DNA of 64,000 nt from a virus. Each line of letters starts with the position of its first letter. Position 1 is the stretch's first letter. Where the stretch lies: IMG/VR virus record IMGVR_UViG_3300035228_000987, positions 1 to 64,000 of that record; one strand, given 5' to 3'. The translations under genes were made by a program, and so were the position numbers. A model generated the notes under the pieces. That model had not been told where the DNA came from and ran no database searches. It saw only the letters and a program-made list of their open reading frames with translations. This document shows positions 3,189 to 28,100 of this stretch, piece after piece.

Positions 3189-3842
3189 ATGAGTCAACTG
3201 GTTGTAAATTTACCTCCACAAAAGGTTTGGGTTCGTAAGGAGTATCTTCGTGATCATCAAGATGGTCATGGAGAATTTGTAGAGGGTATTTGGGTTACTG
3301 CAAAGTCCATTCCAGGACGTGCATTTTATTTTGAAACTTATTTGCCACAATATGGGGCGCTTTATGATAAGTTACCCATTAGCGCGTTCCTTTCACGACC
3401 GGAAACTCCTGAGATAGATCTTGACTTGCCTAACCTACAATTTTGGAATTGTATGGATTATGGTGTTCGTTGTATTGAGAAACAATTCATTGGTTCAATG
3501 GACTTTGAAGTGCGTTCAAGAAACTATGGTAATCTCAAAGGAGAATATTTGTTTACCCTAGATAACTTTCATCCGGATGTTGATATCACAAATTGTAACG
3601 TAAGTGAAGTTCCAGAGGAGCATAAGTCTCATAACTGTATTGAACTTGAAAATGGACAATTTGCTCTGTATCCGAACAACAGAATGAGAGTATATGATCT
3701 GTCAATAACACCAGAAAATCCCCAAACACCTGATTTTAAGGTCTCTACTAAGTATTATCAGGTTGAGAATGGAGTAAGATGGGGTAGATTAGGTGATACT
3801 GACGAATATTTCTGGGAAACACCAGAAGAAAAACAAAATTAA
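3189..3842 (+). CDS. Conserved phage protein of unknown function (217 aa)
   Basis: A 217-residue protein, mainly beta in character, starting MSQLVVNLPPQKVWVRKEYL and containing an HGEFVEGIWVTAKSIPGRAF segment and a C-terminal PDFKVSTKYYQVENG segment. I recall similar proteins next to the baseplate genes of cyanophages but not a function. The start is the second of two ATGs created by a tandem 10-base repeat (AGAACATATG at 3172 and 3182). The first ATG is in another frame. A structural or assembly role is inferred from position only. Confidence 0.7.
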   Translation: MSQLVVNLPPQKVWVRKEYLRDHQDGHGEFVEGIWVTAKSIPGRAFYFETYLPQYGALYDKLPISAFLSRPETPEIDLDLPNLQFWNCMDYGVRCIEKQFIGSMDFEVRSRNYGNLKGEYLFTLDNFHPDVDITNCNVSEVPEEHKSHNCIELENGQFALYPNNRMRVYDLSITPENPQTPDFKVSTKYYQVENGVRWGRLGDTDEYFWETPEEKQN

Positions 3843-3861
3843 TCGCAAAAGGAGAAATTTA

Positions 3862-4035
3862 ATGACTAATCCAGACAGAGATTCCAAGTATATGCATAAA
3901 ATGTGGGGTACATCCACTCTAATTACTGATTATTGGTCAGGAAAAGTGCTTCAGAAGGAGTTGAGAGAAGTTACAGGTGATTCTGATACCGAGAAAAATC
4001 AAGATTCTGACGATACCGAGACACTTCTTGAATAA
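3862..4035 (+). CDS. Small hydrophilic protein of unknown function (57 aa)
   Basis: A 57-residue protein with a KYMHKMWGTSTLITDYW core and an acidic tail. The ATG at 3862 is chosen because AAAAGGAG lies at 3847-3854; an upstream in-frame ATG at 3793 falls inside the previous gene. It is followed by a late-promoter motif, so it closes its transcription unit. Confidence 0.65.
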   Translation: MTNPDRDSKYMHKMWGTSTLITDYWSGKVLQKELREVTGDSDTEKNQDSDDTETLLE

Positions 4036-6419: not shown

Positions 6420-9400
6420 ATGATCAATAAAAGAATTAAAATCAGTAACGTAGTAGAAAATCAACTACCTGATTTTGTAAAGGATACATATCCTCTTGCT
6501 ACTGAGTTTTTAAAATCTTATTACAGATCGCAAGATTCGCAAGGTCTTCCTGCGGATCTAATTAATAATATCGATCAATATCTGAAGTTAGAAAATAATA
6601 CCAATCTTGTCTCAAAAACGTCTCTAACCAGAGATATTGAGTTTGTAGACTCCATCATACCTGTAGAGTCTACAACAGGGTTTCCGGACCAATATGGCAT
6701 CATTCAGATTGATTCTGAGATTATCACATATACTGGAATAACAACAAATTCTTTTACTGGTTGTTCAAGAGGATTTAGTGGGATAACCTCACATAGATCT
6801 TCAAATAGACCCGATGAATTAGTATTTTCATCGTCTGAGAGAGATAACCATACAAGTGGGTCTGATGTAAATAATTTAAGTATACTTTTTTTAAAGGATT
6901 TTCTAAAAAAACTTAAGAAACAAATTGCACCTGGTTTTGATAATAGATCTTTAGCAAAAGATTTGAACCAGAGACTTTTCTTATCAAGATCCAAAGATTT
7001 TTATGAGTCCAAAGGTACAAGTCAAGCATACGAGATTCTTTTCAGAGCACTTTACGGAAAAGATGTAGATCTCAATAGACCAAGTGATTATTTGTTCATT
7101 CCTTCTGATGCTGGATACAGAGTAACAAATGATCTTGTAGTTGAGGCTATATCTGGTAATCCAGAACTCTTAGTTAATAAAACTCTATTCCAAGACAAAA
7201 ATCAATATCATAAAAAAGCATTTGGTACTATTACCAATGTTGAAAAGATTTTTCGCGGAGATAATGAGTATTATGTTATAAGTTTGGATGCTGATTATGG
7301 GAGAGATATTGATACTAATTTTGGATCAGTTCGTGGATCATTTGCTATTCATCCCAAGACTTCCATACTTAACAATGTTTCTATCGGATCTACAATCCTA
7401 GATGTAGATTCAACTATTGGTTTTGCACAGACAGGGCAACTTTCTGCAAAACTTCCTAACGGAACAACAAGTTTACTATCATACACATCTAAATCTTCTA
7501 CTCAGTTTTATGGTGTTTCTGGTGTTTCTCAATCACTTGGAGAGACGCAGGATGTGCGTCAAAACACCGTTGCATTTGGATATACTTCTAGGACGCAAGA
7601 AAACCCCGTACAGGTCCGTATAGGGGCAGTTCTGAGTGATTTGACAGTCCCAGACAATACCAATTTATTTGAAAAGGGTGATAAGGTAGAAATAAAGTCT
7701 CTTGGAAAAATATCAGAAGATATAAGAACTAATAATTGGTTCTATAATATTAAGGTAGAGTATAACATATCAAAAATAATCAAACAAGCAAGTACTATTT
7801 TTGATCTAGAGACTAATGATTCAAATATATTGAAAAAAGATGATTTAATTTCTCTTACTGATAATACAGGTGTATCTCAAACTATCTCTATTGATACTAT
7901 TTTTAGTGATAAGAGATTCAGAGTAAAAGATCTAGTTCTGAATGAAAATAAGATCTATAGTCTCAAAAAATTATCTCTAAAGGGAAACTCCAATTCATAT
8001 CCCCAAATAAGCAATTTACTTGCAAATGTACAAAATACATACTTGAATGAAGAAGATGTTTATGTAACATCAAACTCCATTCCATCTTATTCATCTAACA
8101 TTGAACCAGAAAATTTCTTAGTGAATATAACTGGATCTTTTTCTGGTGAAGAATTAGTTATAGGATCTCATCCATTCTACACCGGAGATGCTGTTCAGTA
8201 CGTAGGAACTGGTTTAAATATATCTTCTGGTACTTATTATGTTAAGGTTGTAAATGCAACAACTATTAAATTATCTGCAAGTAAGCCAAATATAGAAAAT
8301 GATAAATTCTTTACTATTTTTGGTTCTACGACGGACTCCAAGATTGTACAATTTGGATATAAAGGAAAAACACTTGAACCTCAAAAATTAATCCGTAAGT
8401 TATCAAAACCAGAACAAAGAGATCAAGATTATATTACAAGTCCAGGATCAATTGGTATTTTTGTAAATGGTGTAGAACTTCAAAACTACAAGTCTCAGGA
8501 TGTTGTGTATCATGGAGAACTTGAAAATATTATTGTTTCTGCTGAGGGTAGAAATTATGATATTGAAAATCCTCCAATCTTGGACATTGATGATAGATTT
8601 GGATCTCTAGCAACTGGCAAAGTATCGGTAAAAGGAGATCTAAAAAGAATTGAAATTATTGATCCGGGTGTAGATTACCTAGAGATTCCTACAATTACAA
8701 TATCAGGAGGGAATGGATTTGGTGCAATTGCAGAATCCTCTCTAATCAATTACATCCACTCGGTTAGATTTAGTGCCAATAAGGCATCAAATCAAGTTGA
8801 TCTCACACTTAATACTATCTCGTTTAATGAAATTCATAAATTCAGAGATGGGGAAAAAATATTTTATAAAACTTCTGGAGGAACTCCAGTTGGTGGACTG
8901 GATGATAGATCAGAATATCACGTAGGTGTTGTTGATTCATTCAGAGTAAAAATGTATAGAACTCTTGATGATGCCGCAAAGGGAATCAATCCTATAAATT
9001 TAATATCCCATGGAACTGGTGCCCATGAAGTAAGTACCGTTGATTATAGAAAGAAAGTTGCATCTATTAGAGTTACTGATTCGGGCAAAAACTACGAGAA
9101 CAAACATAGACAATGCACACCTGTAGGAATTGATACTGCAAAAAATTCTATAAAAATTGATAATCATGATTATCATAATGGAGACATTGTAACATATGAG
9201 ACAAATAATACTGAGGTACTAGGTCTTTCTACATTGTCATCATATTATATCACTAAAATTGATGATAATGAATTTTTTCTTTCTCAAGTTGGTATTGGTA
9301 CAACCAATAAAGACCAATACTACAAATCTAGAGAATTTGTAGATCTAAGATCAACTGGGTCAGGTCTTCACAACTTCAACTATGAACCAATATCTGTAAA

Positions 9401-12400
9401 AATAAATGGAAGAATTGGTCTATCAACCATAACAACGACTAATAGTATCCTTATTGATCCGAGTAATATTAGATCTGGAGTAAGTACTTTTGTTGCTGGA
9501 GTTGGTCAATCTTCATTTGCGTTTAGTTATACACCAAGATTAAATAGAAACCAATTGATAGATGTATTCGTCAATGGTGTAAGACTATCTGATAGTGACT
9601 TTAATTCTACTAGTGGATCAAATATCATCTTGAATAACTCTACAGGAGGTGGAGAAATTGTTGAGATGGTAAGTTATGGTTCTACTGTAAGAACAAACGA
9701 TACCTCTGTATATGCTGGCGCTGGACAAACTAATTTCCCATTCATTTATGCTTCAGGGTTTTTGGATGTTTATTATAATGGTCTAAAATTACCACAGAGA
9801 GATTACATATCTGACGACGGTCAATCGGTAGTACTAAAAGAAGGTTCAATAGAGGGAGATCTGGTAGAGTTAGTCACATATCCAGAAATTATTAAAATTG
9901 AAAAAACATTTACTGCCCAAGGTGGACAGACAACTTTCCCATTCATACATCAATCCGAGTATGGATTAATTGACGTATATTTAAACGGTGTTAAGTTACC
10001 TACAGAAGAATATGATGCTACAAGTGATCTTGATATAAGATTATATGAAGCAGCTAACCAAGAAGATGTTGTTTATGTTTCGTATATCTACTTAAGCGAA
10101 ATTATTGGTCTTGGTAAAGATTTCAATGCAAAAATTCAACCAATTTTTAGGGGTGAGATTAATACTGCATTCGTTACTAATAAAGGTGCAAATTATGGAT
10201 CACGAGATATTGTAAATTATAATAGACAACCTCTATTTACTCTCAATAGTGGTAAAAATGCAGAGTTAATTCCAGTTATTAACCAAACTACTGGAGGAAT
10301 TGAGGATGTACTGGTTAGAAATCCTGGAAGTGGTTATAACTCAGTTCCAGACTTAAAAATTATTGGTACAGGATCAAGAGCTATCTTAACACCCATCGTC
10401 AAAAATGGTAAACTTGATAGAGTAATTGTTATTAATCCTGGTGTACAGTATGATCCGAATAATACCAGTCTCATAATAGAAGCATCTGGTTTAGGTGCAA
10501 AGTTTGAATCGCAGGTCCAAACTTGGAATATCAATAATTTTAGTAAAGTATTCAATAAAGATAAAATTTCTTTAGATGAAGGATTTTTATATCCAGGTGC
10601 CTCATCAACTCTAAAATATAATCACCTTTATACTCCAAGAAGACTTAGGGAATTATTGTATGGCACAAGACTGTTTAATGGTATTACTCAACTTGAACAG
10701 GATCTAAGGTTAGATCAAAACTCTAGAGAAGTTGAATCTACACAATTTCACTCTCCTATTGTTGGATGGGCATATGATGGAAATCCAATATATGGACCAT
10801 ATGGATTTGAAACATCAACCGGAGGTCTAATTAAGAGAATAAAGTCTAGTTATGTTCTTACAACAAACAGTGCAAGTAGACCATCTCTATCAAGTTTTCC
10901 TCAAGGATCATTTACAAATGACTGGGTTTATAATGGTTCTGGAGATCTTGATGAGCATAATGGCAGATTCTGTGTAACACCTGAATATCCTGATGGGGTC
11001 TATGCATACTTTACTACTATATCCGAGGACATAGACACTATTGGACCTTTTAAGAACTACAAGCGTCCAGTTTTCCCATATGTCATTGGTGACTCTTTTA
11101 ATTCAAAACCAAACCAATTTAATTTTGATGTAACCTCAACAGAAGATTACTTAGACATTGGTGATACTGATTGGTTTAGAAATACAAATCCTTATGGATT
11201 AATCTCAAATGATACTACATATCAATATATTTTTGATCCGAATAAGGTTAGAAAGCAAACTTCAATAGTTGAGTATGCACAACCAGGTTCTTTAACTGGT
11301 ATTGATATACTTGATGGTGGAGAAAATTATAAAGTTGGTGATAATATTATCTTGTCATCAGAAGTGGGAAGAGGTGCATCTGCACAGGTAGATAAGATAC
11401 AAGGAAAATCTATCAATACTGTTAGTGTTGCTACATCATATATTGAAGATGTGGAGTTTCTTTCCTTGGGTATAAATGGCAATTATCTTGGTATTTGCTC
11501 ATCTCCACACGATTTAAATAATGCGGATATTATTTCTATTGCAGGTATATCAACATATAAGAACGACTTACAAAAAAACTTTAGAATTACAGTAAAAGAT
11601 TCTAGAGTTGCATTGGGCGAAAGTATTGACTCGGTTGATGTAACTGGTATTGTTACACATTTAAACCTAGTTAACACACCAGGATATCCAACATTACTAG
11701 AAGATGATATTTTACTATTAGATTCTGAAGAAGTTAAGGTTCTCAATATAGAAGCAAACAAGTCTAGAATCAGGATTCTTAGATCTAGAGTCGGGACTTT
11801 TCATAGTTCATCAACTGAAGTAAAACAAAAGTCAAGAAGAATTGAGTTCAAGGCAAATTATCAAAAGTCTGGACTGACTCAAATTAATAGAAAACTATAT
11901 TTTGACCCCCCCAAAACTGTTGCTATTGCTGCTACTTGGGGTGTAGGAATTACATCAACTGTATTTTTGGACGTTCTAGAGTATAAGATTCCAGCATCGG
12001 TCTCTGCCGGACAATCAACCATACTTCTACTCAAAAATCAAAAAGACATTACAAACTTCTCTGGTGGTGGTTATGTTTCATTAGTAAACCCAACTGATTC
12101 TGCTTTTGCTAGAAAAAATGTTGAAGTTTTAGCAATAGGAACATCTTCAATAACTGTAGATTTTGATACTTCACCTTTGTCTGGTGCGGGGGTTACTGTT
12201 TATGTAAATAAAGTTGAATCTGCCAAAATACCAACAAGATCTGTTTATTTTGAAAATCACGGACTTGAGACAGGTGATAAGGTTGTATATAACTCAAACA
12301 GTGGGTCTGCAATTAGTGTTATAAGAGATACTACTCCAATCACTCTTACTCAAAATTATGAATTGTTTGTAAGAAGAATTAACAATAACGTTTTCTCTCT

Positions 12401-15400
12401 GACTACATCAACAGTTGACCTGGGAACAGATGTAAATGATCTTCAATTTACCGGTATTGGAACGGGAGAATATCATAGTTTCAAAACTGTTCGGAATAAT
12501 GTAATAACTGGTCAACTTGAGAGAAATTTAGTAACTGTTGCAACTGGATCTTCTCATGGACTATCATTGAGAGATACGGTATCGGTTGATGTAAATGTTG
12601 GTATAACAACTACTATAAAAGTTTTCTATAATGATAGAAATCGTAGATTAGTCGTCAATAAGAGATCATTTATATCTTCTGATGTTGATACGATAAAAGA
12701 TACTATTCGTATTGACAATCATGGATTATATACAGGTCAAAAGATTATTCTGCAAACGGATTCTTCCACAGATTTCACAAATGATGAACTGTATTATGTG
12801 ATAGCATTTGATAGTAATAAAATACGTCTATCAAAAACTCATTTTGACAGTAGACTAGATTTACCTTCTTTTATCAATATTACCCAATCTTTCTCAGGAT
12901 CAATATTCCAGATTAATCCTCAAATTAAATATAGTGGTAATCAAAAAGTTAAGTTTGATCTTTCAGACTCTTCACTCTCATACATTTCATCGTCGGGACA
13001 AGCATTTAGTGCCTTTGAGTTTAATCTCTATACTGATGAAAAGTTTGAAAACTTATATACAACAACTGGCGATCTCAGTGAGTTTAATGTTACCAAGACT
13101 GGGGCAATTGGATTAAATTCTGATGCCTCATTGACATTTTCTTCATCGTTAGAAACTCCGGAGACAATTTTCTACACACTAAAACCACTTCCAGATGTTC
13201 CAGTACTTGTTAAAAAACAATTAATCAATGATTTTGATAAGATTAGATCTGCACATTCATTGTTAAAAGTTGATAGTGTATATTCAGGCAATCACTCAGT
13301 TGTATCAACATCATCAACAACATTTTCATATGTTGTTTCATCTCAACCAGAAACTTCTAGATATACTAGTAATAATGCAAACTTATCATACGAGTCTACC
13401 TCTAAAACTATCTCAGGATCAATTTCTTCAATAAGAATTACATCTCAAGGATCTGGATATGTAAATTTACCTGATATTTCTAGAGTTAATACAGATAATG
13501 GAAACTTTAGTATTTTAAATCCTTATTCTACCAACGTTGGTAGAATTAAGAGTACTAAAATTGAAGATATAGGATTTGATTATCCTACAGATAATACGTT
13601 AAGGCCATCAGTAAATCTTGCAAATATCTTGCAAGTTGAGCGTTATAGTTCAATTGAGAGTATTGGAATTTCTAGTGCTGGAAATGGTTATACAACTCCA
13701 CCAGACTTGATCATAATTGATACTGTAACAAATAATATTTTAGATGTAATATTAAAATACGAATTAGGAAGCCCCGAAGTAAAGATCTTAAAAAACACAA
13801 AAGATCTTTATGATTCATCACCAAATATTATTCCTATTCACAACTCAAACTCTATTGGTATATCTACAGTAGAGTATGACGAATCAACCAAAGATGTTAT
13901 TATAACATTGAACAAATCTTTTGAAACTACTACATCTTTCCCATTCAATGTGGGCGATGAAGTAATGATCGAGAGTGTTGGTATTACAACTACGGGTAAG
14001 GGATATAATACAAAAGATTATGATTACAATTATTTTACCATAACATCAATAGAACCACGTATTGGGGGAGTTAATCCTACAGTTACACTCAATCTATCAG
14101 GTTTTCTAAAACTTAACGAGAAACCTGGAGAATTTGATAGCGATATCTCATCTGGAAAAATTGTTGCAGTTAAGAATTTCCCATTATTTACTATATCACT
14201 ATTAAAAAATGATTTCTTACTTGGTGAGACAATACTAACTACAGATGGCACTGTGGGTGTGGTTGATAAATGGAATGTTCTTAATAATAGGTTAAAGATT
14301 CTTTCTCCTTTTGGCATCTTCAGAAATGGTTTGACAATTGAAGGTAAAACTTCTGGAACTAAGGCATTAATTGTAGACTCCAGTAAGATTGAAGGATCAT
14401 ACAATATTGATTCATCATCCGAGGTTAGACAGGGGTGGAAGCGTGATACTGGATTCTTAAATAATGCATTCCAAAGATTGCATGATAGCGATTACTATCA
14501 ATATTTTTCATATGAACTTAAATCATCAGTTTCTCTTGAAAACTGGGATGAACCTGTTCAGACATTAAGTCATCCTGCAGGATTCAAGAAGTTTAGTAAC
14601 TTGATCATGGAGGATTCATCTATTGTTGGTATACTTACTGCTCAAGATGAGGGAGACTTTACTTCAACAGTTGATATCATCAACGTTACGAACGTAAACT
14701 GTTATAGTGACTGGGATCTTGTAACAGAAAATTATAAGTTTATAACTGGAGATTTGTTCTCAGATGAAATTATTTTTGGTAGCAAAATTCTACAGAATTA
14801 TTTTGAATCAGTAACAAATAAAGTTCTTTCAATTGATAATATTAGTGATCAATTCAATAGTGATGAGCGTCAAGATCCATTTTCAGTTGTTGACGTTTAT
14901 CCACTAAATCAGAGATATAAAAAGTACATCACTTATGTTAAGGATAAGAGATTTACTAACGAGAGACAACTCTTGATGGTAACAGTCCTTCACGATGATA
15001 TTAGAGGATATTTAAACCAATATGGAAGATTAGAAACATCTTCAGATCTCGGATCTTTTGATTTCTCAATAAGAGCATTTGAAGGCAATCTTGACTTCTA
15101 TCCTGTGAAATTCAAGAAAAATAACTACGATATTTCTCTAGTTTCTTATAATCTTGAAGATCAACTTGTTGGTGTTGGAAGCACTGGTTTAGGATCGGTA
15201 AGTGAAATACAAACTCAAGGAATAACCGTACCTGTAGGGTTTGCCGATACTTCAATAGCAATGGCAACAATTGAAAAATCATATAAAGGTGCCAAAGTTC
15301 TTGTATCAATAGCAACTACAGATTCTATACATCAATATGAAGAGATCTCTATTTTAAGAAATTCTTCTGATGAAATTGCAATGCTTGAGTATGGTCAATT

Positions 15401-18400
15401 AATTGATGAGTCTTTATCGCAAACCTCAGTGTCTGGACTTGGAACATATGATGCATATGTTCCTTATAAGTTGATTCCAACTGTATCTGCTGCAGATTAT
15501 TTCAACTCTTCTGGTATTGAAACTTCAAAAGGTGGAACAGGAACTGGTCCATTTGGTGGATTTTCAATTGGAGATTATACTGAGTTGACTGGAAATGGTC
15601 TGAGACAATTAACCCTTCCACCAGAAGATGCTAGAAATTATGAGTTTATAACTGTAAATGCAGTCGTTGGTAGTGACTTTAACGGTGGTGAGCAACCCGA
15701 GGCAACTGAATCACTTCACGCATACTATAGTATTGATGGTGGATCAACATATGTTGATTTTGGGGAACTTGTTCCATATACTGGGGCACATTCGCTAAGA
15801 AACTATACTCTTGAGATTCCCGAGGAGGCAAGAACTGTTAATACACTGTTTAGATTACGTCAACAACAAAATAGTGGAAATGGATTTGATAACTTTGGTA
15901 TTAAACATGTAATCTTTGAAAGTGATCGTACATATGTAAACTTCTATCCAAATGCAGGTATTGCTGGAACAGTCAATACCCTGACTGTGGGACTGGCGCT
16001 AACTGCAGGAACTGGGATCGGTTCCATGACATTCAATACCAATACAGTTGAGTCAATTTACACTGGAATAGGATCAACATCATCTCCAGTAGCAAATAGA
16101 ATTGCTGGTTGGTCTACTGATATATTCAATGGTGGTTATCTACTTGTTGGTATTGAAGATCAGACAAATAATGAATATGAATTATTTGAACTTCTTGCCG
16201 CTGAAGATGATCTAGATCAATCAATAACCGAGTTTGGAAACCTCTTAACTTCAAGTGGTATAGGAACTATCGGAATTGCATGTACTGGAGTAAATCTTGA
16301 TATTACATTTACACCAAATGCAAATATTGCTGCGAATGTAAGAGTATTCCAACACTCACTTCGCTTAGTTGATAACTTTAACACAGATACTGGAATTGGT
16401 TTCAGCAATGGATCAATTAATTCTGGAAATGGTGTTTACCGAGGAACAGAACTTGATATTACAAGAAGTTTCAATATTGTACACAACAATAAAGATGTTT
16501 TTGAGAAATACTTTAGTCCAACATCTGATCCCAGAAAAGGACCAGTAATATCAACTAATGTTGTAGATTTAGCGACTAATCAAATATCAGTAGATGATCA
16601 CTTCTTCGTAAGTGGAGAGGAGATTACATATTCATACCCAGATGTTCCCGGATTTGAACCCATTGGTATTGCTCAAACTACAATTTTAGGAATAACTACG
16701 GATAAACTCCCATCTAGGATATATGCAGTTAGTAGTGGAAAAAATGGCGTAAAAGTTGCTGCATCCGCATCTGAAGCATTAAGAGTTCCTCCATCTGTAC
16801 TTGACATATCATCAACTGGTATAGGTGTATCACATAGGTTCACTGCTTGTAAGCAAAATCAAAAATCTCTCATAACTATTGATAATCTAATTCAATCTCC
16901 GGTTGTTGCTACAGCAACAACAACTATCTTGAATAAAGTCGTCACTACTTTTGATGACTCAATAATCATGAAAGATATCACAAAGTTCATGAGTGGTGAT
17001 ATTGTTAAAATTGACGAAGAAATTATGAGAATTGACTCTATCAATTCGTCAAATAATAAAGTAAATGTTAGAAGACCTTGGATGGGAACAAATATTGGTA
17101 TTCACTCTTTGAGTACAAAAGTTCAACTCATGAGAGGTAATTATAATATTATAGGGAACAAACTTAACTTTATTGATGCACCACTAGGATTAAATCCTAT
17201 AGGATCTACAACAAATCAACCAAACGAGAGAGATTTTACTGGAATTTCTACATCATCAGTATTCTCTGGCAGAGTATTCACTAAAACTGGCACAATAGGT
17301 GATACTCAAGACCCTTATAATAAGAACTATCTGTTTGATGATCTATCAGACTCATTCACTGGTGTAACAACAGAGTTTACCTTGACGAGCAGCACACCTC
17401 TTGATGGTGAAGTATTTGATATTACCTCGGAGTCAATTACATTTAATGGCGCAACATGGCCTGTAAGAGGCAAATTGTATGTTCCAAATACACCATCTCC
17501 AGATTCCGATGTTGTTGTTTTCTATCATGGTGATATTGATGATTCTAGTACAACAGTTTTGGAATCTGCACAAAATTTGTTTACATATGCAAAAGATATT
17601 CTCTTATTAAAGGATAAGATTATTTTTAGTGCTGCTTATCCACAAGATGACATTCCTCAAGCAAATTCTCTTGATGGAACTATTGGTGGAATTGAGAACG
17701 CTTCATTCTTATATGAAAATAACTTGAATTATGCTCGCGCATCTTTACGTTGGGCAAAATCCACCTTGAATACATATCTAACTGGAAATGGAGTTAATAA
17801 GATCGTTGATAAAATTTACATGTTTGGTCACACCCAAGGTGGAGCACTTGTTCATAAATTAAATCGTTTTGAGAGAACTGATGGTGTTATTATTAGTGCG
17901 GTCAATCAAATTCGCCTTGATTTAACATGTCGCTCAGAAGAAACAAATGGTCTTGTTGGAACTGGAAAAACTATTTCTAATATAAACGCCACATGCCAAA
18001 AACTGTTTAATCAATTTGGATCAGCATTTAATACTGCAGAATACTTTAACAGATCAGTTCAAGGTTATACAACAGGTTTACTAGCACCTGTTCTCTACAT
18101 TCAAGGACAGCAAGATACTACAACTAATAGTAATCAAGTAAACCTTGTAGATACATTATACGCTTCTTTGCAGGGTCAGGGTAATCCAACTACATCTTTG
18201 TTGAGAGTCACTGGCGGTCAAAATGCATACATTGCAAATGCAGATGTTCATGAAGAAATTAGAAACTTTGTGAAATCTGATGGTGCATCAAATATATTTA
18301 AGAGTGAAATCACTGGAATATCAACCAATAATGCTATAGTTGTACTTAACGGAATTTTCCAATCACCATCTCGGTTTGGAACAAATCCTATTGTTAATGA

Positions 18401-20534
18401 TTATCATATCACTGAAAGTAATGGAATCTCAACAATATCGTTCACTTCTGCACCTATAGGCGGAGAGATAGTATCTATAGCATCAACTTCAACTCTAGGT
18501 TATCAACCTCTGGTCAGTGCTGGTGGATCTGCAATAGTATCCGAATTAGGAACTATTCAGTCAATTTCTATTGGAAATAGTGGGTCTGGATATAGACCTG
18601 GTATCCAAACCCATGTTTCAGTATCTGTTGCATCTTCTTCACTATCTAATCCTACTATTGAAAAAGTTGGTGTAGCATCAATTTCAAATGGCATTGTCAT
18701 TGGTGTTGATATCACAAATCCAGGATCTGGTTATACCTCATCAAATCCACCAAGAGTGATTATTGATGATCCATTCCCATATGCAGATCTAGAGTTAAAT
18801 TATGCAAATGGTTCTAGTGGTGTAGGTACTGGAGCAAGAGTATCAGTTATTGTTGGTCAAGGATCAAGTATTATTGATTTTGAGTTAACTAACACTGGAT
18901 CTGGATATGAAATTGGAGATGTCTTAACAGTATCTATTGGCGGAACGACTGGATTGGCTACTAATACATCTTATAGTTTCCAGCAATTTGAATTAACAGT
19001 TGATAATCAATATCAAGAACAATTTAATGGTTGGAGTGTTGGAAACCTCACATTATTTGATAAGATTGATAAACTATTCAATGGTTTTGATAGATCTTTC
19101 CCTCTAATGATTGATGGCGAAAGACAGTCCATCACGGCAAGAGAAGGAAGTGGTATTGACATTGGAATGACTTTACTTGTATTTCTAAATGGAATCTTGC
19201 AGGAACCTGGAGTTGCATATAAGTTTGATGGTGGAAGCACGCTAACATTTACACAACCTCCTGTGGTGGGTGAAGATTCAACCATTTTATTCTATCAAGG
19301 CAATGCTGATGTTGATGTGATTTTCAAAGATATCCTAGAAAGTGTAAAGGTTGGTGATAACTTACAAATTGTCTCCGATACCGTATTAAATCAAGATAAG
19401 AGAACAGTTTTTTCTATTGATTCTACCGATGTGGTATCTACCAATACATATGGTGGACAAGGAATTGTGACTACTGGTCTTGTTAGACCTGTTGAATGGT
19501 GTAAACAAACATCAGATAAGTTTATCAACGGTGATTATGTCGCTAAAGATAGAGAAGAGTATGAATATCTAATCTATCCGTCTACAAATATTATCAAAAC
19601 CATTGAATCTAATGATGATATTATTTTTGTTGAGAATATTAGTACTATTTTTGACTCCATAAATGAGAATCCAACTCCAATATCAACTAGAAAAGATATA
19701 ACTATCATTGATCAAGATACCGTCGTATCTGCCGCTGCAACAGCGACAATTAATGGATCAGGTAGTGTTACGTCATTTACTGTTACAAACTCTGGTGTAG
19801 GGTACACACAGGCACCTACAGTGACGGTAGAGAACCCAACTGGGGGTGGAACTGATTCAAGAGCAACTGCTACTGCAACTATATCTGGAGGAAAAGTAAC
19901 TTCTATATCAGTATCTTCTGGTGGATTAGATTATACTAAAGCACCTGTCGTCTTGCTTGAACCACCTAGAGTTAAATATGAAATTATTAAAAATGTTTCA
20001 TATGCTGGAGATTTTGGAGTAATTGGTGGAATCTCTACAACATCTGTTGGTGTTGCACCTATAGGAATTGTATTTGATCTTTATATTCCAGAGAACTCAT
20101 ACTTGAAGGATTCTGCGATTGTATCAACTGCATCAACTATCAGTGCGATAGAAACTGGTTTTTACTTTATGGTTTCCGGAACCAATGTTGGATCAGGAGT
20201 TACCTCATTAAATTCTAGTGGAGCAATAATTACTAATGGAACTGATTATCTAGATAATGTTTATGAAGCAGTCGCAGTATCCTTTGCACAAACAAGTGTT
20301 CCTGGGGTTGGAGTAACAGATGTTGCTAGGGTTACAGTAAGTGTAAGTGATTATAACAACCTAGACATCAGTTCTGTAGAGAGAGTTCATGGTAAATATT
20401 CTTGGGGTAAAATATTCACCTCTAGAAATTCCAGTAATTCTTATGAAATATATAATAATGGATTATCTGGAATTACTACCTCTCCAATCGTGAGAAGGGT
20501 GAATCCACTGGAAAATAGTAATTACCTACAATAA
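6420..20534 (+). CDS. 7: Giant gp7-like baseplate protein (4704 aa) with YHYH, jelly-roll and alpha/beta-hydrolase domains
   Basis: A single open frame of 4704 residues, roughly 500 kDa, against about 1030 for T4 gp7. Its place between gp6 and gp8 and its N-terminus (VENQLPDFVKDTYPLATEFL and a helical ALYGKDVDLNRPSDYLFIP block) mark it as the cyanophage gp7-like wedge protein. Visible modules in order: a GE-I-Y-type beta module (84-124); HGL/YYV modules near 577, 794, 907, 1939, 2094 and 3381; GSGY repeats near 699, 1284, 4044 and 4441; three NGVKL repeats (1019-1227); a YHYH domain (about 1434-1558); a jelly-roll-like module (3037-3172); an alpha/beta-hydrolase insert (about 3659-3958); and a last NGI repeat near 4235-4300. 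There is no frameshift. It acts in the baseplate; the extra domains may bind or cut surface polymers, which is inference. Confidence 0.85.
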   Translation: MINKRIKISNVVENQLPDFVKDTYPLATEFLKSYYRSQDSQGLPADLINNIDQYLKLENNTNLVSKTSLTRDIEFVDSIIPVESTTGFPDQYGIIQIDSEIITYTGITTNSFTGCSRGFSGITSHRSSNRPDELVFSSSERDNHTSGSDVNNLSILFLKDFLKKLKKQIAPGFDNRSLAKDLNQRLFLSRSKDFYESKGTSQAYEILFRALYGKDVDLNRPSDYLFIPSDAGYRVTNDLVVEAISGNPELLVNKTLFQDKNQYHKKAFGTITNVEKIFRGDNEYYVISLDADYGRDIDTNFGSVRGSFAIHPKTSILNNVSIGSTILDVDSTIGFAQTGQLSAKLPNGTTSLLSYTSKSSTQFYGVSGVSQSLGETQDVRQNTVAFGYTSRTQENPVQVRIGAVLSDLTVPDNTNLFEKGDKVEIKSLGKISEDIRTNNWFYNIKVEYNISKIIKQASTIFDLETNDSNILKKDDLISLTDNTGVSQTISIDTIFSDKRFRVKDLVLNENKIYSLKKLSLKGNSNSYPQISNLLANVQNTYLNEEDVYVTSNSIPSYSSNIEPENFLVNITGSFSGEELVIGSHPFYTGDAVQYVGTGLNISSGTYYVKVVNATTIKLSASKPNIENDKFFTIFGSTTDSKIVQFGYKGKTLEPQKLIRKLSKPEQRDQDYITSPGSIGIFVNGVELQNYKSQDVVYHGELENIIVSAEGRNYDIENPPILDIDDRFGSLATGKVSVKGDLKRIEIIDPGVDYLEIPTITISGGNGFGAIAESSLINYIHSVRFSANKASNQVDLTLNTISFNEIHKFRDGEKIFYKTSGGTPVGGLDDRSEYHVGVVDSFRVKMYRTLDDAAKGINPINLISHGTGAHEVSTVDYRKKVASIRVTDSGKNYENKHRQCTPVGIDTAKNSIKIDNHDYHNGDIVTYETNNTEVLGLSTLSSYYITKIDDNEFFLSQVGIGTTNKDQYYKSREFVDLRSTGSGLHNFNYEPISVKINGRIGLSTITTTNSILIDPSNIRSGVSTFVAGVGQSSFAFSYTPRLNRNQLIDVFVNGVRLSDSDFNSTSGSNIILNNSTGGGEIVEMVSYGSTVRTNDTSVYAGAGQTNFPFIYASGFLDVYYNGLKLPQRDYISDDGQSVVLKEGSIEGDLVELVTYPEIIKIEKTFTAQGGQTTFPFIHQSEYGLIDVYLNGVKLPTEEYDATSDLDIRLYEAANQEDVVYVSYIYLSEIIGLGKDFNAKIQPIFRGEINTAFVTNKGANYGSRDIVNYNRQPLFTLNSGKNAELIPVINQTTGGIEDVLVRNPGSGYNSVPDLKIIGTGSRAILTPIVKNGKLDRVIVINPGVQYDPNNTSLIIEASGLGAKFESQVQTWNINNFSKVFNKDKISLDEGFLYPGASSTLKYNHLYTPRRLRELLYGTRLFNGITQLEQDLRLDQNSREVESTQFHSPIVGWAYDGNPIYGPYGFETSTGGLIKRIKSSYVLTTNSASRPSLSSFPQGSFTNDWVYNGSGDLDEHNGRFCVTPEYPDGVYAYFTTISEDIDTIGPFKNYKRPVFPYVIGDSFNSKPNQFNFDVTSTEDYLDIGDTDWFRNTNPYGLISNDTTYQYIFDPNKVRKQTSIVEYAQPGSLTGIDILDGGENYKVGDNIILSSEVGRGASAQVDKIQGKSINTVSVATSYIEDVEFLSLGINGNYLGICSSPHDLNNADIISIAGISTYKNDLQKNFRITVKDSRVALGESIDSVDVTGIVTHLNLVNTPGYPTLLEDDILLLDSEEVKVLNIEANKSRIRILRSRVGTFHSSSTEVKQKSRRIEFKANYQKSGLTQINRKLYFDPPKTVAIAATWGVGITSTVFLDVLEYKIPASVSAGQSTILLLKNQKDITNFSGGGYVSLVNPTDSAFARKNVEVLAIGTSSITVDFDTSPLSGAGVTVYVNKVESAKIPTRSVYFENHGLETGDKVVYNSNSGSAISVIRDTTPITLTQNYELFVRRINNNVFSLTTSTVDLGTDVNDLQFTGIGTGEYHSFKTVRNNVITGQLERNLVTVATGSSHGLSLRDTVSVDVNVGITTTIKVFYNDRNRRLVVNKRSFISSDVDTIKDTIRIDNHGLYTGQKIILQTDSSTDFTNDELYYVIAFDSNKIRLSKTHFDSRLDLPSFINITQSFSGSIFQINPQIKYSGNQKVKFDLSDSSLSYISSSGQAFSAFEFNLYTDEKFENLYTTTGDLSEFNVTKTGAIGLNSDASLTFSSSLETPETIFYTLKPLPDVPVLVKKQLINDFDKIRSAHSLLKVDSVYSGNHSVVSTSSTTFSYVVSSQPETSRYTSNNANLSYESTSKTISGSISSIRITSQGSGYVNLPDISRVNTDNGNFSILNPYSTNVGRIKSTKIEDIGFDYPTDNTLRPSVNLANILQVERYSSIESIGISSAGNGYTTPPDLIIIDTVTNNILDVILKYELGSPEVKILKNTKDLYDSSPNIIPIHNSNSIGISTVEYDESTKDVIITLNKSFETTTSFPFNVGDEVMIESVGITTTGKGYNTKDYDYNYFTITSIEPRIGGVNPTVTLNLSGFLKLNEKPGEFDSDISSGKIVAVKNFPLFTISLLKNDFLLGETILTTDGTVGVVDKWNVLNNRLKILSPFGIFRNGLTIEGKTSGTKALIVDSSKIEGSYNIDSSSEVRQGWKRDTGFLNNAFQRLHDSDYYQYFSYELKSSVSLENWDEPVQTLSHPAGFKKFSNLIMEDSSIVGILTAQDEGDFTSTVDIINVTNVNCYSDWDLVTENYKFITGDLFSDEIIFGSKILQNYFESVTNKVLSIDNISDQFNSDERQDPFSVVDVYPLNQRYKKYITYVKDKRFTNERQLLMVTVLHDDIRGYLNQYGRLETSSDLGSFDFSIRAFEGNLDFYPVKFKKNNYDISLVSYNLEDQLVGVGSTGLGSVSEIQTQGITVPVGFADTSIAMATIEKSYKGAKVLVSIATTDSIHQYEEISILRNSSDEIAMLEYGQLIDESLSQTSVSGLGTYDAYVPYKLIPTVSAADYFNSSGIETSKGGTGTGPFGGFSIGDYTELTGNGLRQLTLPPEDARNYEFITVNAVVGSDFNGGEQPEATESLHAYYSIDGGSTYVDFGELVPYTGAHSLRNYTLEIPEEARTVNTLFRLRQQQNSGNGFDNFGIKHVIFESDRTYVNFYPNAGIAGTVNTLTVGLALTAGTGIGSMTFNTNTVESIYTGIGSTSSPVANRIAGWSTDIFNGGYLLVGIEDQTNNEYELFELLAAEDDLDQSITEFGNLLTSSGIGTIGIACTGVNLDITFTPNANIAANVRVFQHSLRLVDNFNTDTGIGFSNGSINSGNGVYRGTELDITRSFNIVHNNKDVFEKYFSPTSDPRKGPVISTNVVDLATNQISVDDHFFVSGEEITYSYPDVPGFEPIGIAQTTILGITTDKLPSRIYAVSSGKNGVKVAASASEALRVPPSVLDISSTGIGVSHRFTACKQNQKSLITIDNLIQSPVVATATTTILNKVVTTFDDSIIMKDITKFMSGDIVKIDEEIMRIDSINSSNNKVNVRRPWMGTNIGIHSLSTKVQLMRGNYNIIGNKLNFIDAPLGLNPIGSTTNQPNERDFTGISTSSVFSGRVFTKTGTIGDTQDPYNKNYLFDDLSDSFTGVTTEFTLTSSTPLDGEVFDITSESITFNGATWPVRGKLYVPNTPSPDSDVVVFYHGDIDDSSTTVLESAQNLFTYAKDILLLKDKIIFSAAYPQDDIPQANSLDGTIGGIENASFLYENNLNYARASLRWAKSTLNTYLTGNGVNKIVDKIYMFGHTQGGALVHKLNRFERTDGVIISAVNQIRLDLTCRSEETNGLVGTGKTISNINATCQKLFNQFGSAFNTAEYFNRSVQGYTTGLLAPVLYIQGQQDTTTNSNQVNLVDTLYASLQGQGNPTTSLLRVTGGQNAYIANADVHEEIRNFVKSDGASNIFKSEITGISTNNAIVVLNGIFQSPSRFGTNPIVNDYHITESNGISTISFTSAPIGGEIVSIASTSTLGYQPLVSAGGSAIVSELGTIQSISIGNSGSGYRPGIQTHVSVSVASSSLSNPTIEKVGVASISNGIVIGVDITNPGSGYTSSNPPRVIIDDPFPYADLELNYANGSSGVGTGARVSVIVGQGSSIIDFELTNTGSGYEIGDVLTVSIGGTTGLATNTSYSFQQFELTVDNQYQEQFNGWSVGNLTLFDKIDKLFNGFDRSFPLMIDGERQSITAREGSGIDIGMTLLVFLNGILQEPGVAYKFDGGSTLTFTQPPVVGEDSTILFYQGNADVDVIFKDILESVKVGDNLQIVSDTVLNQDKRTVFSIDSTDVVSTNTYGGQGIVTTGLVRPVEWCKQTSDKFINGDYVAKDREEYEYLIYPSTNIIKTIESNDDIIFVENISTIFDSINENPTPISTRKDITIIDQDTVVSAAATATINGSGSVTSFTVTNSGVGYTQAPTVTVENPTGGGTDSRATATATISGGKVTSISVSSGGLDYTKAPVVLLEPPRVKYEIIKNVSYAGDFGVIGGISTTSVGVAPIGIVFDLYIPENSYLKDSAIVSTASTISAIETGFYFMVSGTNVGSGVTSLNSSGAIITNGTDYLDNVYEAVAVSFAQTSVPGVGVTDVARVTVSVSDYNNLDISSVERVHGKYSWGKIFTSRNSSNSYEIYNNGLSGITTSPIVRRVNPLENSNYLQ
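9475..10100 (+). repeat. Three tandem NGVKL fibre repeats inside the gp7-like protein
   Basis: Three consecutive units of about 65-70 residues follow the pattern G-Q-(S/T)-x-F ... (I/L)DV(F/Y)xNG(V/L)(K/R)L ... DY/DF ... G(D/E)-V-E-V-Y. The same unit occurs six times in the DUF4815 protein (23977-25224) and once in the S74 fibre protein (about 39780-39990). The DNA of the copies has diverged, so this is an old protein-level repeat. Confidence 0.75.
10720..11095 (+). other. YHYH domain within the gp7-like protein
   Basis: Residues about 1434-1558 carry HSPIVGWAYDGNPIYGPYG, then a GDLDEHNGRF motif and EYPDGVYAYFTT, closing with FPYVIG. This order matches the YHYH domain family (PF14240), known from bacterial secreted or periplasmic proteins, function not established. 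In the virion it could be an adhesion or metal-binding module. Confidence 0.8.
15530..15935 (+). other. Jelly-roll-like beta-sandwich module within the gp7-like protein
   Basis: Residues about 3037-3172 include YYSIDGGSTYVDFGEL, a YTLEIPEEARTVNTLFRLRQ segment and GNGFDNFGIKHVIFE. This strand order (ST-DGG turn, RxRQ strand, DNxxI-xxV closing strand) resembles reelin/MAM-type or sugar-binding beta-sandwiches. A glycan-binding role is an inference. Confidence 0.45.
17394..18290 (+). other. Alpha/beta-hydrolase domain inserted in the gp7-like protein
   Basis: Residues about 3659-3958. The order fits an alpha/beta-hydrolase of the esterase or prolyl-oligopeptidase-like kind: RGKLYVP strand, VVVFYHGD with an HG oxyanion motif at H3703-G3704, a nucleophile elbow MFGHTQGGALVHKL with Thr3805 where Ser is expected, then LYIQGQQD with acid candidate D3899, and ADVHEEI with His candidate H3944. 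The flanking residues are NGI-type fibre repeat sequence. Whether the Thr supports catalysis cannot be told from sequence. Confidence 0.8.
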
Positions 20535-22119: not shown

Positions 22120-25100
22120 ATGCCACAGGAAACTAACTTAAACGTCTCTCCATATTTTGACGACTTTGATTCAGACAAAAATTATCATAAAGTATTATTC
22201 AAACCAGGGTATCCAGTTCAAGCTAGAGAACTGACTACCTTACAGTCTATATTACAAAATCAGGTAGAACAATTCGGTAACAATATCTTTAAAGAAGGTG
22301 CGAAAGTAATACCTGGACAAACTATATTTAATAGCAAATATAGTGCAGTTGAAATTGATAATAGTTTTTCCGGAATTTTATTGTCTTCTTATATTTCAAA
22401 GTTAGTTGGAACAACAATCCGTGGTGACTTATCTGGAGTTAGAGCAAGAGTTGAAGCAGTCCTAACTGAATCACAGTCAGAGAGAAATAGCACTACTTTA
22501 TATGTAAGTTATATCTCATCAAGTTCAAACAATATATCTGGAACTTTTGAGGATAACGAAAACTTAGTTACTGAAACTGGAATCCAATCTTCAAATATAA
22601 TTTTCATTGAAAATGAGTCTTTTGCGACAACAAAAAGTCGGAGTTCAACCTCTGATGCATCTTCATTTACCGTTCAAAATGGAGTATATTTTTTAAGGGG
22701 TGCATTTGTAAACGTACCAACACAAACAATTATTCTAGATCAATACTCTAATAAACCTTCATATAGAATTGGATTTAATATCCTTGAAGAAATTATTAAC
22801 TCTGATCTTGATGAGTCGTTGTTTGATAACGCTCAAGGATATAACAATTTCTCTTCTCCTGGTGCAGACAGATTTAAAATTAGTGCGATTCTCACCAAGA
22901 AAAAAATTACAGACTTTGATGACACTAACTTTGTAGAGATTTCTCTAGTTCAGGACGGCATTGTTAGAAATAATCCTAATGATACTCAATATAATTACAT
23001 TACTGACACTCTAGCATCAAGAACTTTTGAAGAATCTGGTAATTATTATGTAAAACCATTCAAATTATCGTGTCTAGAATCACTTAACGATAATGAAGGA
23101 AACAATGGTGTATTCAAATCAAATCAACTGACGTATGAAGGGAATTCTCCATCAGATAATCTGTTTGTTTATAGATTGACTCCAGGAAAGGCTTATGTTA
23201 AAGGATATAGAACTGAAATAAATTCACCTACATTTCTTGATGTAGAGAAGACTAGAGATACTAAAGAGTTAAAAAATCAGTCTATAAATTATTTTACTGG
23301 ACCATCTTTTACGCTAAACAATGTTTCGGGATCTCCCGAAATTGGAATAAACACTACATATACAGTCAGTTTAAGAAACTCTAGAATTATTGATGACAAA
23401 GTTGCTGCTGGAAATGAAATCGGTGTAGCAAGAGTTTATGATTTTGTGCTAGAAAGTGGATCATATAATACTACATTATTGGACTCTAATGAGTGGAATG
23501 TTTCACTATATGATGTTCAGACGTTTACTGAGATCACATTAAATACAGAAATAAGTTTAAATAGATCTACAAGAGTAAAAGGTAGATCTAGTGGTGCGGT
23601 TGGATATTTGCAGAACTCAATATCAAGATCTAAAACACTAAAACTCAATAGTACCAAAGGTTCATTTATTAATGGTGAAACTTTTAGTTTCAATGGAATG
23701 GATAATGGTAGAATTTCTGTGGCAACTACCATATATGGACTAAATGATGTAAAATCAATATATGGAAACTCAGGAATTGGAGGTACTTTTAACTCTGATA
23801 CGGCACAGACCAACTCCATAAACTTAGGAGAGTCTACTATTAGTGGTAGAAATACTGTTACTAATAGAAGTACTGTAGCAATTCCAAACATTACTTATTC
23901 TAACATTCTAAGAAAGGGTGGACTACTCTCTTATTTTGATAGTAGTAAATTTGTTCTTGAGCAGTCTTCCTTTAGAGGAATCACCACATCAGTAACATCA
24001 ACAGATGGGTCACAAGATATTGAGGTTGATCATACTGTTGGCGCAACAGAGGCATTTGTTAATGGTATCAAACTATCAACAGATGGATATGTTTCGGTTG
24101 GATCATCAATTATTAGATTAAATGTTGCTCCAGAAATTGGAGATGTTGTTGAAGTTGTAAAATTTAGAGAAGGAATTCGTAATAAGCAAGAAATTATTGC
24201 TTATGATGGACAATCGGTAATTCCATTTACAACTACAACCGCACTAAGATCTACAGATAAAGATAATACTCAAATCTTTATCAATGGTGTTTCTATCAAA
24301 TCAGATGATTTTGATATCAATACTACAGGATCTGGAAACATTCGTGTTAATCAATCTCTAGAAATCGGATCTAACATTGAGATTGTTGATTATGGTCTCG
24401 GAGATCTTGTTGGACTTTCTACTTTTACTCCAGATACCCCAAGAGAATCATTTAATGTAGTATACAATCCAAATAGAGTTGAAGTTTACGCTAACGGCGT
24501 AAGACTTGATAAGAGTGATTATACATCATCAAATGGAACAGCAATTACTCTAAACAACGGCACAATAGGATCTGGGGATGTTTTAGAGATAGTTGAAAGG
24601 AAGAATAATATTGTTTCATCTGCTACGACATATACTGCTGTTGGTCTTCAAACTTCATTTGTTGCAACATACACTCCAGGTAGTGTTGAAGTTTTTTACA
24701 ATGGCGTAAAGTTAGAATCAGAGGAGTATAACTCATCCAGTGGATCATCTATTGATTTCATAAAACCATCAAGAATTGGTGATGTTATAGAAATCGTTGC
24801 ATATCCATCAGGAATTAGAAATATAGTGAGAAGTAATATTACCTCGGAATCTCAAGATCAATTCTCTCTACCAAATTCAACTAGAGATTTTGAAGTTTTT
24901 ATTGATGGTATAAAACTGACAAAAAATGATTATGCATTGACTAGATCAGATTTATCCTATGTCTTGGATTATCCATTATTTGCTGGTGATCACATTGAAA
25001 TTAACTTGTTTGACAGAGAGTCTTATGGTACAAGCACTGTAACTGCGTTAGAAGGGCAAACGGAGGTCAATTTCAACTATTCACTAGGATTCTTAGATGT

Positions 25101-28100
25101 TTACTTGAATGGCGTCAAGATTGACCCATCAAACTATAATGCAAATAATGGTCAAACTATAGTGTTTTACGAACCTCTGTTTGTGGGAGATATTGTTCAG
25201 ACATATAACTATTCAACATCGGCATTTGTAACACCATTTGCAGGAATTAATAATAGATCATTTGCAGAAATTACTGATATTGATACCAATGGTGATTTTA
25301 CAATTGTAACGATAAAAGGTGTTACATCAGTTGTAGGTGTTAATGAAGGTTCTCTACCTACAAGAGCAATAACTGTATCTGACTTACAGTCATTAAGAAC
25401 AAAAATACCACCATCTTCTGATAATACATTATTCACACCTCTACCAAGAAGAAATATTTCAGAAATAAATTTATCTTCATCACAACTCACAATTAAGAAA
25501 CAATATGATATAACTATTACATCAAACTCAACAAACACCATTTTTGCGGGAGCAAATGAGACATTCTTGCCCTATGATGAAGAGAGATATGTATTAACCT
25601 TTCTTGATGGAAAAGTTCAACCTTTAAGAAAGGACATGTTTGTGTTCTCTGCAGGTGGAACTAGACTGACCATAAACGGACTTGAAAAAAATGGTCAGGC
25701 TAGATTTATTACGACACTGAAGAAGATTAATATTAAGTCAAAGTCAAAGAAAAACAGAAAATCATCTAGTTTAGTAATTTCAAAGTCTGCAAATTCTTCT
25801 TCCGGAATAGGAACAACTACACTTAATGATGGTTTGGCATATGGCACTTTCCCATATGGGACACGAGTTCAGGATAATGAAATTTCACTCAATACTCCAG
25901 ATGTAATTGAAGTTTATGGAGTATTTGAAGCATTTAAAAACGAGGATCCAAGTTCGCCAAGATTGACCTTATCATCATTAACTGGATCAAATACAACTAC
26001 TATTGACTTAATATTAGGAGAAACCTTTACTGGCACTACTAGCAATGCAAAAGGTGTATTTGTTGAAAGACGTGATGATCAAGTAATTGAATTTGTATAT
26101 TTAAACAATAATACATTCTCAACTTCCGAGAAGATTGTCTTTGATGAGTCTGGAATTGAATCTATTATTTCTTTAGTATCCCCTCATGGAAAAGATATAA
26201 CCCAATCATTTACTCTAGATAATGGTCAGAGAGATACTTTCTACGACTATGGAAGACTTGTCAGACAACCAGGTAAGAACGCGCCAACTAGAAAGGTAAA
26301 AGTATACTTCAAAAGTGGATTCTATGATGCAAATGATGATGGTGATATAACAACAATCAACTCATATCAAGACTTTGATTATGAAAAAGAAGTTGAGTAT
26401 TACAATGATGCTCGTACTAGCGATATAATTGACATTAGACCAAGAGTATCTGACTATACTACAATTGAAGGTTCTAGATCACCATTTGAATTCTACGGCA
26501 GAAACTTCACCCAAAGTGGAAACAGTGCAAAAAATATTATTGCACCAGATGAATCTATTAATTTGGATTATAGTTTCTATCTACCCAGAATTGATAAGAT
26601 TTTCTTAAATAAGAATGGTCTCTTTAAGATTGTTAAAGGCGTATCATCTGAGAATCCTACTCCACCAGAACAGGTAGAAGACTCAATTGAAGTTGGAGAA
26701 ATTTTTATACCCCCTTTCTTATACAGTGTAGATAATTGCTCAATTATCCAGAAGAAGTATAAGAGATATACAATGAGAGATATCTCCAGACTTGAGGGTA
26801 GAATCACGGATCTTGAGAGATTTACAACCCTCTCAATGCTTGAATCGGATACTGCAAATCTTTTTATATCTGACAAGTCTGGTTTGAATAGATTTAAGTC
26901 TGGATTCTTGGTAGATAACTTCAAAAATTCAACAAATCAAGATGAAAGAATTGGTGTTAAGAACTCAATTAATCCCAATTATGGAGAAATGAGACCTTCT
27001 CACTATACAACTTCTGTTGATCTACTTCTCGGTTCAGACTCAGTAATTGGTGCAGGACAAACATCAAATCCATATGTTGACCTCAATTTTGTTAATGATA
27101 TCAAGGGAACAAATGTAGTCAAAACTGGCGATATTCTAAGTCTTAACTATGAAAAAGTTGAGTGGTTATCACAGACATTTGCAACAAGAACAGAAAAAGT
27201 TTCCCCATACTTAGTAAATTTCTGGGAAGGAATTGTTGAACTATCACCCGATTCTGATACATGGGTTGACACTGTAAGAGTAACTCCATCCAACCTTAGT
27301 GTTAGTGGAAACTTTACATCATCAATAGATAAATTTGCAAGATCTGAAGGATACAATGCTCAGAATGGATTTATTCCATCTATCTGGGAATCTTGGAACA
27401 TTTTATGGAGTGGAAACTCCAAAATGCTGGGCAATTCTACACAAGCTGATCAGAAATCAGTTTATCCTAGATTCTTCAACACTGATGACAGATCATCAAA
27501 CAATGGTGACATCAGATGGGTTGGATTGGAGAGAACTGGAAGTGGATATACTATAGAATCAATTACCTCCGATAATGATACTTCAACAACACAAAGTATT
27601 GCAACTCAAGAGTTCAATACCAATGAGGCAGGGGAAAAAGTTGTATCTGATGACATTACATCGTATGTAAGATCTCGTAACGTAAAATTTAAGTCTGATA
27701 AATTAAAACCAAGCACAAGAATGTATGCATTCTTTGATGGTGTTGACGTTAATGAGTTTATTGTACCAAAACTTATTGAAGTTACAATGGTTTCTGGCAA
27801 ATTTACTGTTGGAGAAACTATTTCTGGATATGTTCCTGGTCTTGACTATAGTGATGTTTCATATGGCGCAAATCCAAAGATAACTTTCAGAGCAGCAGTA
27901 CCAAATCATAAAGTTGGTCCTTATAACAACCCGACAAAAATTTATGAAGATAATCCATATAATAGCACTCTAACAGTGCCTGCTGCATATTCTTCAACAT
28001 CAACTATCGTAAACGTTGATACGTTCTCGTTAGCAAATGAACCTCAAGGAGAATATTTTGGTTTCATTAAGAGACAAATGAGATTATATGGAGAAACAAG

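Follow-up and report, generated by a model that had tools for sequence, protein, structure and literature searches.

An in-frame alpha/beta-hydrolase insert in a cyanophage-like gp7 baseplate protein, most likely a pseudo-enzyme from a mobile and circularly permuted family of virion hydrolases

Our analysis indicates that a giant gp7-like baseplate protein of a marine cyanophage relative carries, within one of its turns, an additional domain with a predicted alpha/beta-hydrolase fold. The domain belongs, as a degenerate copy, to a mobile family of virion hydrolases with circularly permuted forms, a membership that the first-pass annotation of this DNA overlooked. The explanation which we favour, and which we consider probable, is that of an in-frame hydrolase insert in gp7 whose relatives look active and which has itself become a non-catalytic decoration. 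A broader reading, namely that a mobile virion hydrolase of marine viruses moves in frame between proteins, changes its orientation by repeated permutation and serves in gp7 as a non-catalytic ligand-binding module, we hold with less assurance, at only slightly better than even chances.

The window, by which we mean the whole 64-kb stretch analysed, belongs to a 64,907-base virus record and is a single metagenomic sequence. The product of its gp7-like gene (Table 1) matches the phrog_2885 'baseplate wedge subunit' family with 3185 bits, the gene is flanked by gp6-like (phrog_219) and gp8-like (phrog_438) genes, and the flanks of the hydrolase insert match the cyanophage 'baseplate wedge initiator'; homology to cyanophage gp7 and gp6/gp8 synteny thus both place it among T4 gp7-like wedge proteins. 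Given that the gp6 protein is ~56% identical to those of its nearest isolates (Synechococcus phages RN05-S/S-B05 and Prochlorococcus phage P-TIM68), the window virus is a relative of T4-like marine cyanophages, and we infer its host from the same kinship. Elsewhere in the window, a 595-aa protein (41364-43151) has a region of right-handed beta-helix (Pfam PF13229, E 2e-9) and matches no PHROG; it may serve in receptor binding or as a depolymerase, in the manner of a tailspike. A 507-aa tail protein (37174-38697) gives a weak, sub-threshold match to PF18454, the major tropism determinant N-terminal domain, and a 2916-aa protein (22120-30870) matches phrog_358, of unknown function; the counterpart position of the latter in Synechococcus phage S-SCSM1 is occupied by a large gene with a virion-protein tag, named VrlC.

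Table 1. The gp7-like gene of the window, its hydrolase insert and the active-site positions of the insert.
Feature	Position	Strand	Remarks
gp7-like giant baseplate wedge protein	6420..20534	+	4704 aa; hosts the insert
Left junction, gp7 FTLTSS strand/turn	17376..17393	+	residues 3653-3658; empty-site alignment
Inserted alpha/beta-hydrolase domain (predicted), linear topology	17394..18290	+	residues ~3659-3957
Oxyanion-loop motif HG[T], here HGD	17526..17534	+	Asp3705; Thr in other non-redundant members
Nucleophile position, Thr3805 (ACC)	17832..17834	+	Ser in 39/39 relatives
SAVNQI in place of NAPGPI loop	17895..17912	+	NAPGPI conserved in family and cellular relative
Triad acid Asp3899, kept	18114..18116	+	alignment with relatives
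Catalytic-His position, Gln3934 (GGQNAY)	18219..18221	+	His in 39/39 relatives
ADVHEEI with His3944, last helix	18240..18260	+	non-catalytic; Gln in most relatives
Right junction, NIFKSEITGI, gp7 restarts	18291..18320	+	empty-site alignment

That the insert is a complete alpha/beta-hydrolase domain is predicted with high confidence. An AF2 model of the domain alone, built from 13 sequences (the window domain's linear homologues), reaches a pLDDT of 87.5 and a pTM of 0.88 and has eight strands in hydrolase order (12-23, 26-36, 43-50, 82-87, 143-152, 170-174, 239-244 and 273-278), with helices in between. A Foldseek search with this model returned 887 PDB matches at E<=1e-3, the best being TTL lipase (E 5e-11), together with acylaminoacyl peptidases, Est1E and feruloyl and cinnamoyl esterases; model and search agree on an eight-stranded core with helices between strands 3-8. 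In BFVD the best match was the S-SCSM1 tail fibre (E 4e-23, TM 0.76), followed by generic viral hydrolases, while a family profile built without the window matches residues 3669-3957, over both its N and C halves, with 298 bits (E 2.9e-93). Peripla_BP_5 matches of the relatives (E ~1e-4, below the cut-off) were rejected, as the fold search returns hydrolases. Conventional sequence searches were far less informative: no curated Pfam family matched the window domain at gathering score, single-sequence searches of Pfam, NCBIfam and PDB with it gave no useful match, and the relatives matched Abhydrolase_6 and Hydrolase_4 weakly (E 0.007 at best). This lack of sequence matches for the window domain alone is what one would expect had the motif order arisen by chance in a beta-rich structural repeat with no hydrolase present, a reading that is refuted by the predicted fold, the Foldseek and BFVD matches and the family profile, and to which we give practically no credence.

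The insertion itself is best seen when both flanks of the domain are joined into a 226-aa empty-site query. The joined flanks matched 94 phage records (87 over >=80% of the query), all from cyanophages or marine viruses, and 30 of 31 viral loci cross the junction uninterrupted, the match in the remaining one (L130) being restricted to a short end piece. In a 12-row alignment the turn between FTLTSS and SEITGIST[DN]NAI is short in the other proteins and holds ~300 additional residues in the window, and no other gp7 found (~90 phage genes, 30 viral contigs) carries a hydrolase insert at this site. At the level of sequence the domain is thereby shown to be a clean in-frame loop insertion in gp7, with an empty site in others, as is the rule by which we delimit the family. 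The insert and its host gene have the same composition (GC 35 and 34%, GC3 19 and 20%, respectively), which therefore gives no sign of a very recent foreign arrival, and a search for repeats at the insert junctions found none. An intein-like or homing origin was set aside, as the insert is one hydrolase domain, its relatives carry a hydrolase triad and its junctions are repeat-free. Since the domain was modelled alone, we infer its exposure on the baseplate. Several claims of the first-pass annotation are borne out by these results: the motifs VVVFYHGD, GHTQGG, LYIQGQQD and ADVHEEI are all present in the ORF, the domain boundaries that it proposed agree with the empty-site junction to a few residues, and the hydrolase fold, the location inside a gp7-like wedge protein and the absence of the domain from this site in the other gp7 proteins found have withstood the structure prediction, fold search and homologue survey that it had proposed as checks.

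Its catalytic assignment fared differently. With minor variation, the relatives share the motifs HGT ... GHSQG[G/A] ... NAPGPI ... Q-x-x-x-D ... GGH-x-[AGS]-[FY], whereas those of the window read HGD ... GHTQGG (17826-17843) ... SAVNQI ... GQQD ... GGQNAY. All three triad residues (Ser, Asp and His) are kept in 39/39 relatives. The window domain retains the acid after strand 7, has Thr in the G-x-Nu-x-G elbow where a serine hydrolase would have a Ser, Cys or Asp nucleophile, and lacks the His after strand 8. The elbow that had been taken as catalytic holds Thr instead of Ser, and the histidine of ADVHEEI lies ~10 residues past the true His position. The losses are focused: seven of the 32 columns that are invariant among the other 31 non-redundant members are altered in the window (T to D, S to T, T to R, PGP to VNQ and H to Q), mainly in the HGT, GHS, NAPGPI and GGH loops, as opposed to 0-3 changes in any other member at its own such invariant columns. 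The end branch of the window (0.63, compared with 0.32 for its sister L061) is consistent with relaxed constraint. The alignments thus show a loss concentrated on the active site, with the fold retained according to the model, and as nucleophile, histidine and oxyanion-side loops are gone, the window copy is most likely a non-catalytic pseudo-enzyme.

Could the domain nevertheless be the active, baseplate-fixed esterase or peptidase that was first proposed? Thr3805 would then be the nucleophile, and His3944 or some other residue would be the base. The fold and the triad Asp are kept, and there is a His near the C-terminal helix; moreover, Thr is a possible nucleophile in other folds, so some residual activity of the window copy is conceivable. 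However, Gln occupies the true His position, the HGT and NAPGPI loops are altered as well, and the canonical triad is universal among the relatives, two of which (L016 and L069) have a His at the ADVHEEI position besides the catalytic one, so that this residue is no stand-in for it. With nucleophile and catalytic His both substituted we regard such an enzyme as quite improbable, and the fallback offered at the time, a binding-only remnant, is better supported. Of the original reading, then, the fold, the gp7 context and the absence elsewhere stand, and the catalytic triad does not. Active-site decay and a long branch could also mark a passenger, a once active module in a tolerant loop that drifts without function; gp7 genes without the insert are the rule, and retention by drift of an insertion awaiting loss gives the same picture. 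The open frame, the mostly intact core columns and the confident model speak against this only weakly, in the case of the frame because it is shared with an essential protein and selection there removes stops and frameshifts. We consider a passenger unlikely and prefer a non-catalytic domain that still has a role.

A viral scan with the window domain as sole query found no relatives; the S-SCSM1_235 protein was the stepping stone from which the viral-contig scans started. They reveal a family of at least ~50 distinct viral contigs plus phage S-SCSM1, a lower bound since pattern-based scans require exact peptides. Almost every contig encodes the domain within a larger protein, and these hosts comprise about twelve unrelated virion proteins, named here by the PHROGs of their flanks, although these names are annotations and several reflect shared domains and not whole-protein identities. 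They include gp7-like wedge proteins (phrog_2885: window, L014, L055; L008 by phrog_4406/2885; L058 weakly), tail fibres (phrog_529: L010, L013, L024; phrog_15006: L017; phrog_5342: L019; phrog_9729: L015), the short tail fibre phrog_4924 (L016, L021, L043; L051 weakly), the tail protein phrog_457 (L009) and less well named hosts (phrog_9158: L026, L079; 27200: L020, L067; 24848: L052; 2155: L069; 4474: L076). Among the gp7-like hosts, the window, L014, L055 and L008 seem to have the domain inserted at different sites, the last three as judged by eye from the flanks. In the tree the window is sister to L061 (support 100/95). One good example of mobility is the pair of permuted copies in L010 (a tail fibre) and L014 (a gp7): their hosts are unrelated, yet the two share 79.4% DNA identity over 898 bases which comprise the domain and, within the stretches compared, nothing outside it, as expected of a module that moved. 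For the phrog_529 fibre insert, too, an empty site occurs in P-SSM2 and other phages.

Beyond viruses, a first bacterial scan found no family relative and a second found one stand-alone relative, L136:4722-5681, in the Parcubacteria MAG OLB19. This free-standing protein of ~320 aa has an apparent N-terminal membrane anchor and keeps GHSQGG, NAPGPIDL and a His close to its end. Such relatives are rare in the phylum, 380 genomes of which yielded no second clear member and weak matches in four. The family is previously undescribed, in that our literature search, which covered a minority of the subscription journals, found no paper on it.

Reading the chain order with separate N-half and C-half profiles revealed three topologies. 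The linear form (order N-C) occurs in the window and ~20 contigs. A first circular permutation (C-N), found in ~20 contigs (L008-L015, L017-L023, L025-L027, L042, L043, L046, L047), opens the chain in the loop that runs from the second conserved Cys to the strand leading to the Asp, while a second (C2-N-C1), in S-SCSM1 and L003-L005 (loci L002-L005), opens it between the Asp and His strands. A linker of ~10-15 residues joins the old ends of permuted forms. An AF2 model of the permuted L014, likewise built from 13 sequences, has a pLDDT of 81.2 and a pTM of 0.85, and its three best PDB matches, at low TM-scores of ~0.36, are circularly permuted HaloTag7 structures, which supports the permutation independently of the family profiles. 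In the phrog_529 fibre, linear (L006, L007, L024) and permuted (L013) copies lie in corresponding loops, as seen by eye from the flanks. The host proteins of L042 and L060 also seem related, with shared motifs such as ...GLYRSWGDI-FPW..., the former having a permuted copy near the host N-terminus and the latter a linear copy past the host's conserved part. As the permuted relatives are mostly metagenomic contigs, one may suspect an assembly artefact. However, the same permuted genes were assembled from independent samples (three contigs are 100% identical over 2901 bases, and further recurring genes 95-98.5% identical), the second permuted order occurs in an isolate genome (S-SCSM1), complete loci have open host-protein frames on both sides, and the permuted chain folds confidently with engineered permutants as best matches, all of which makes an artefact very improbable.

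In a tree of 41 rows, rooted on the very long branch of the Parcubacteria protein L136, the linear form is basal and the permuted forms are not one clade. Forcing them together costs 30.7 log units, and a single origin of permutation is rejected on this tree (p-AU 0.0085, a value which presumes that the permuted group was named ahead of the tree). At least three changes among the three topologies are needed, the separate case of the first permutation being L042; a reversal from permuted to linear would look the same as a second gain.

How might these observations fit together? We propose that a complete linear hydrolase domain of a phage-borne family entered, in frame, a gp7 turn that looks exposed. 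Its relatives in many tail proteins look active, judging by their invariant Ser-Asp-His. As esterases fixed to the virion, they would deacylate or de-esterify glycans or lipids on the host surface during adsorption. Permutation would shift the exit of the tether and hence the way in which the active site is turned towards the cell. In the window copy the nucleophile, the His and the oxyanion-side loops are lost and the fold is kept; it most likely decorates the baseplate rim in a binding or steric role that needs no catalysis, and would represent the turn of an enzyme into a pseudo-enzyme on a baseplate. More broadly, little is known about the surface substrates of Synechococcus and Prochlorococcus, and the family suggests which enzyme activity cyanophage virions are likely to carry; the isolate S-SCSM1 makes this testable now. 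One natural family that was apparently permuted more than once, at two cut points, and that has both forms in corresponding loops of one tail-fibre family also offers a natural series for studying the origin and benefit of permutation.

Among known systems, the closest is the S-SCSM1 'tail fiber protein' SSCSM1_235 (QFG06499.1), whose homologous domain is 36% identical to that of the window but has an intact Ser-Asp-His triad, is circularly permuted with its cut between the Asp and His strands, and sits in a small fibre protein of 368 aa and not in gp7. Its record bears the tag '(virion protein)', which by our count 48 genes carry in all, that of the non-structural NMNAT included, and mass spectrometry of CsCl-purified S-SCSM1 particles detected 45 proteins, NMNAT among them (PMC9602691), a number close to but not exactly that of the tags; the presence of the family on virions is thus indirectly supported. 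A word search of that paper (PMC9602691) nowhere found SSCSM1_235 mentioned as a hydrolase. Feruloyl and cinnamoyl esterases, TTL lipase and acylaminoacyl peptidases share the fold, the strand order and the positions of nucleophile, acid and base, but known esterases of this fold are only ~15% identical to the family, which falls below every Pfam cut-off, and the window in addition lacks nucleophile and His. Ig-like domains are likewise mobile modules scattered over many unrelated virion proteins of tailed phages; unlike hydrolase modules they are non-enzymes and are not known to be permuted. To permute an alpha/beta-hydrolase circularly is chiefly a protein-engineering trick, and the HaloTag7 permutants (8b6p, 8b6n), which share their permuted topology with L014, were made in the laboratory, whereas the permutants of the family are natural and recurring. 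At least one possible precedent for natural rearrangement in this fold exists in the Alcaligenes esterase 1qlw, which can be aligned to another member only if one segment is placed out of sequence order (PMC2213659), although it is a free enzyme with no phage and no movement between hosts, and without linear and permuted forms within one family. Given this possible precedent, our claim to novelty rests not on permutation per se but on its recurrence within one mobile family of virion proteins.
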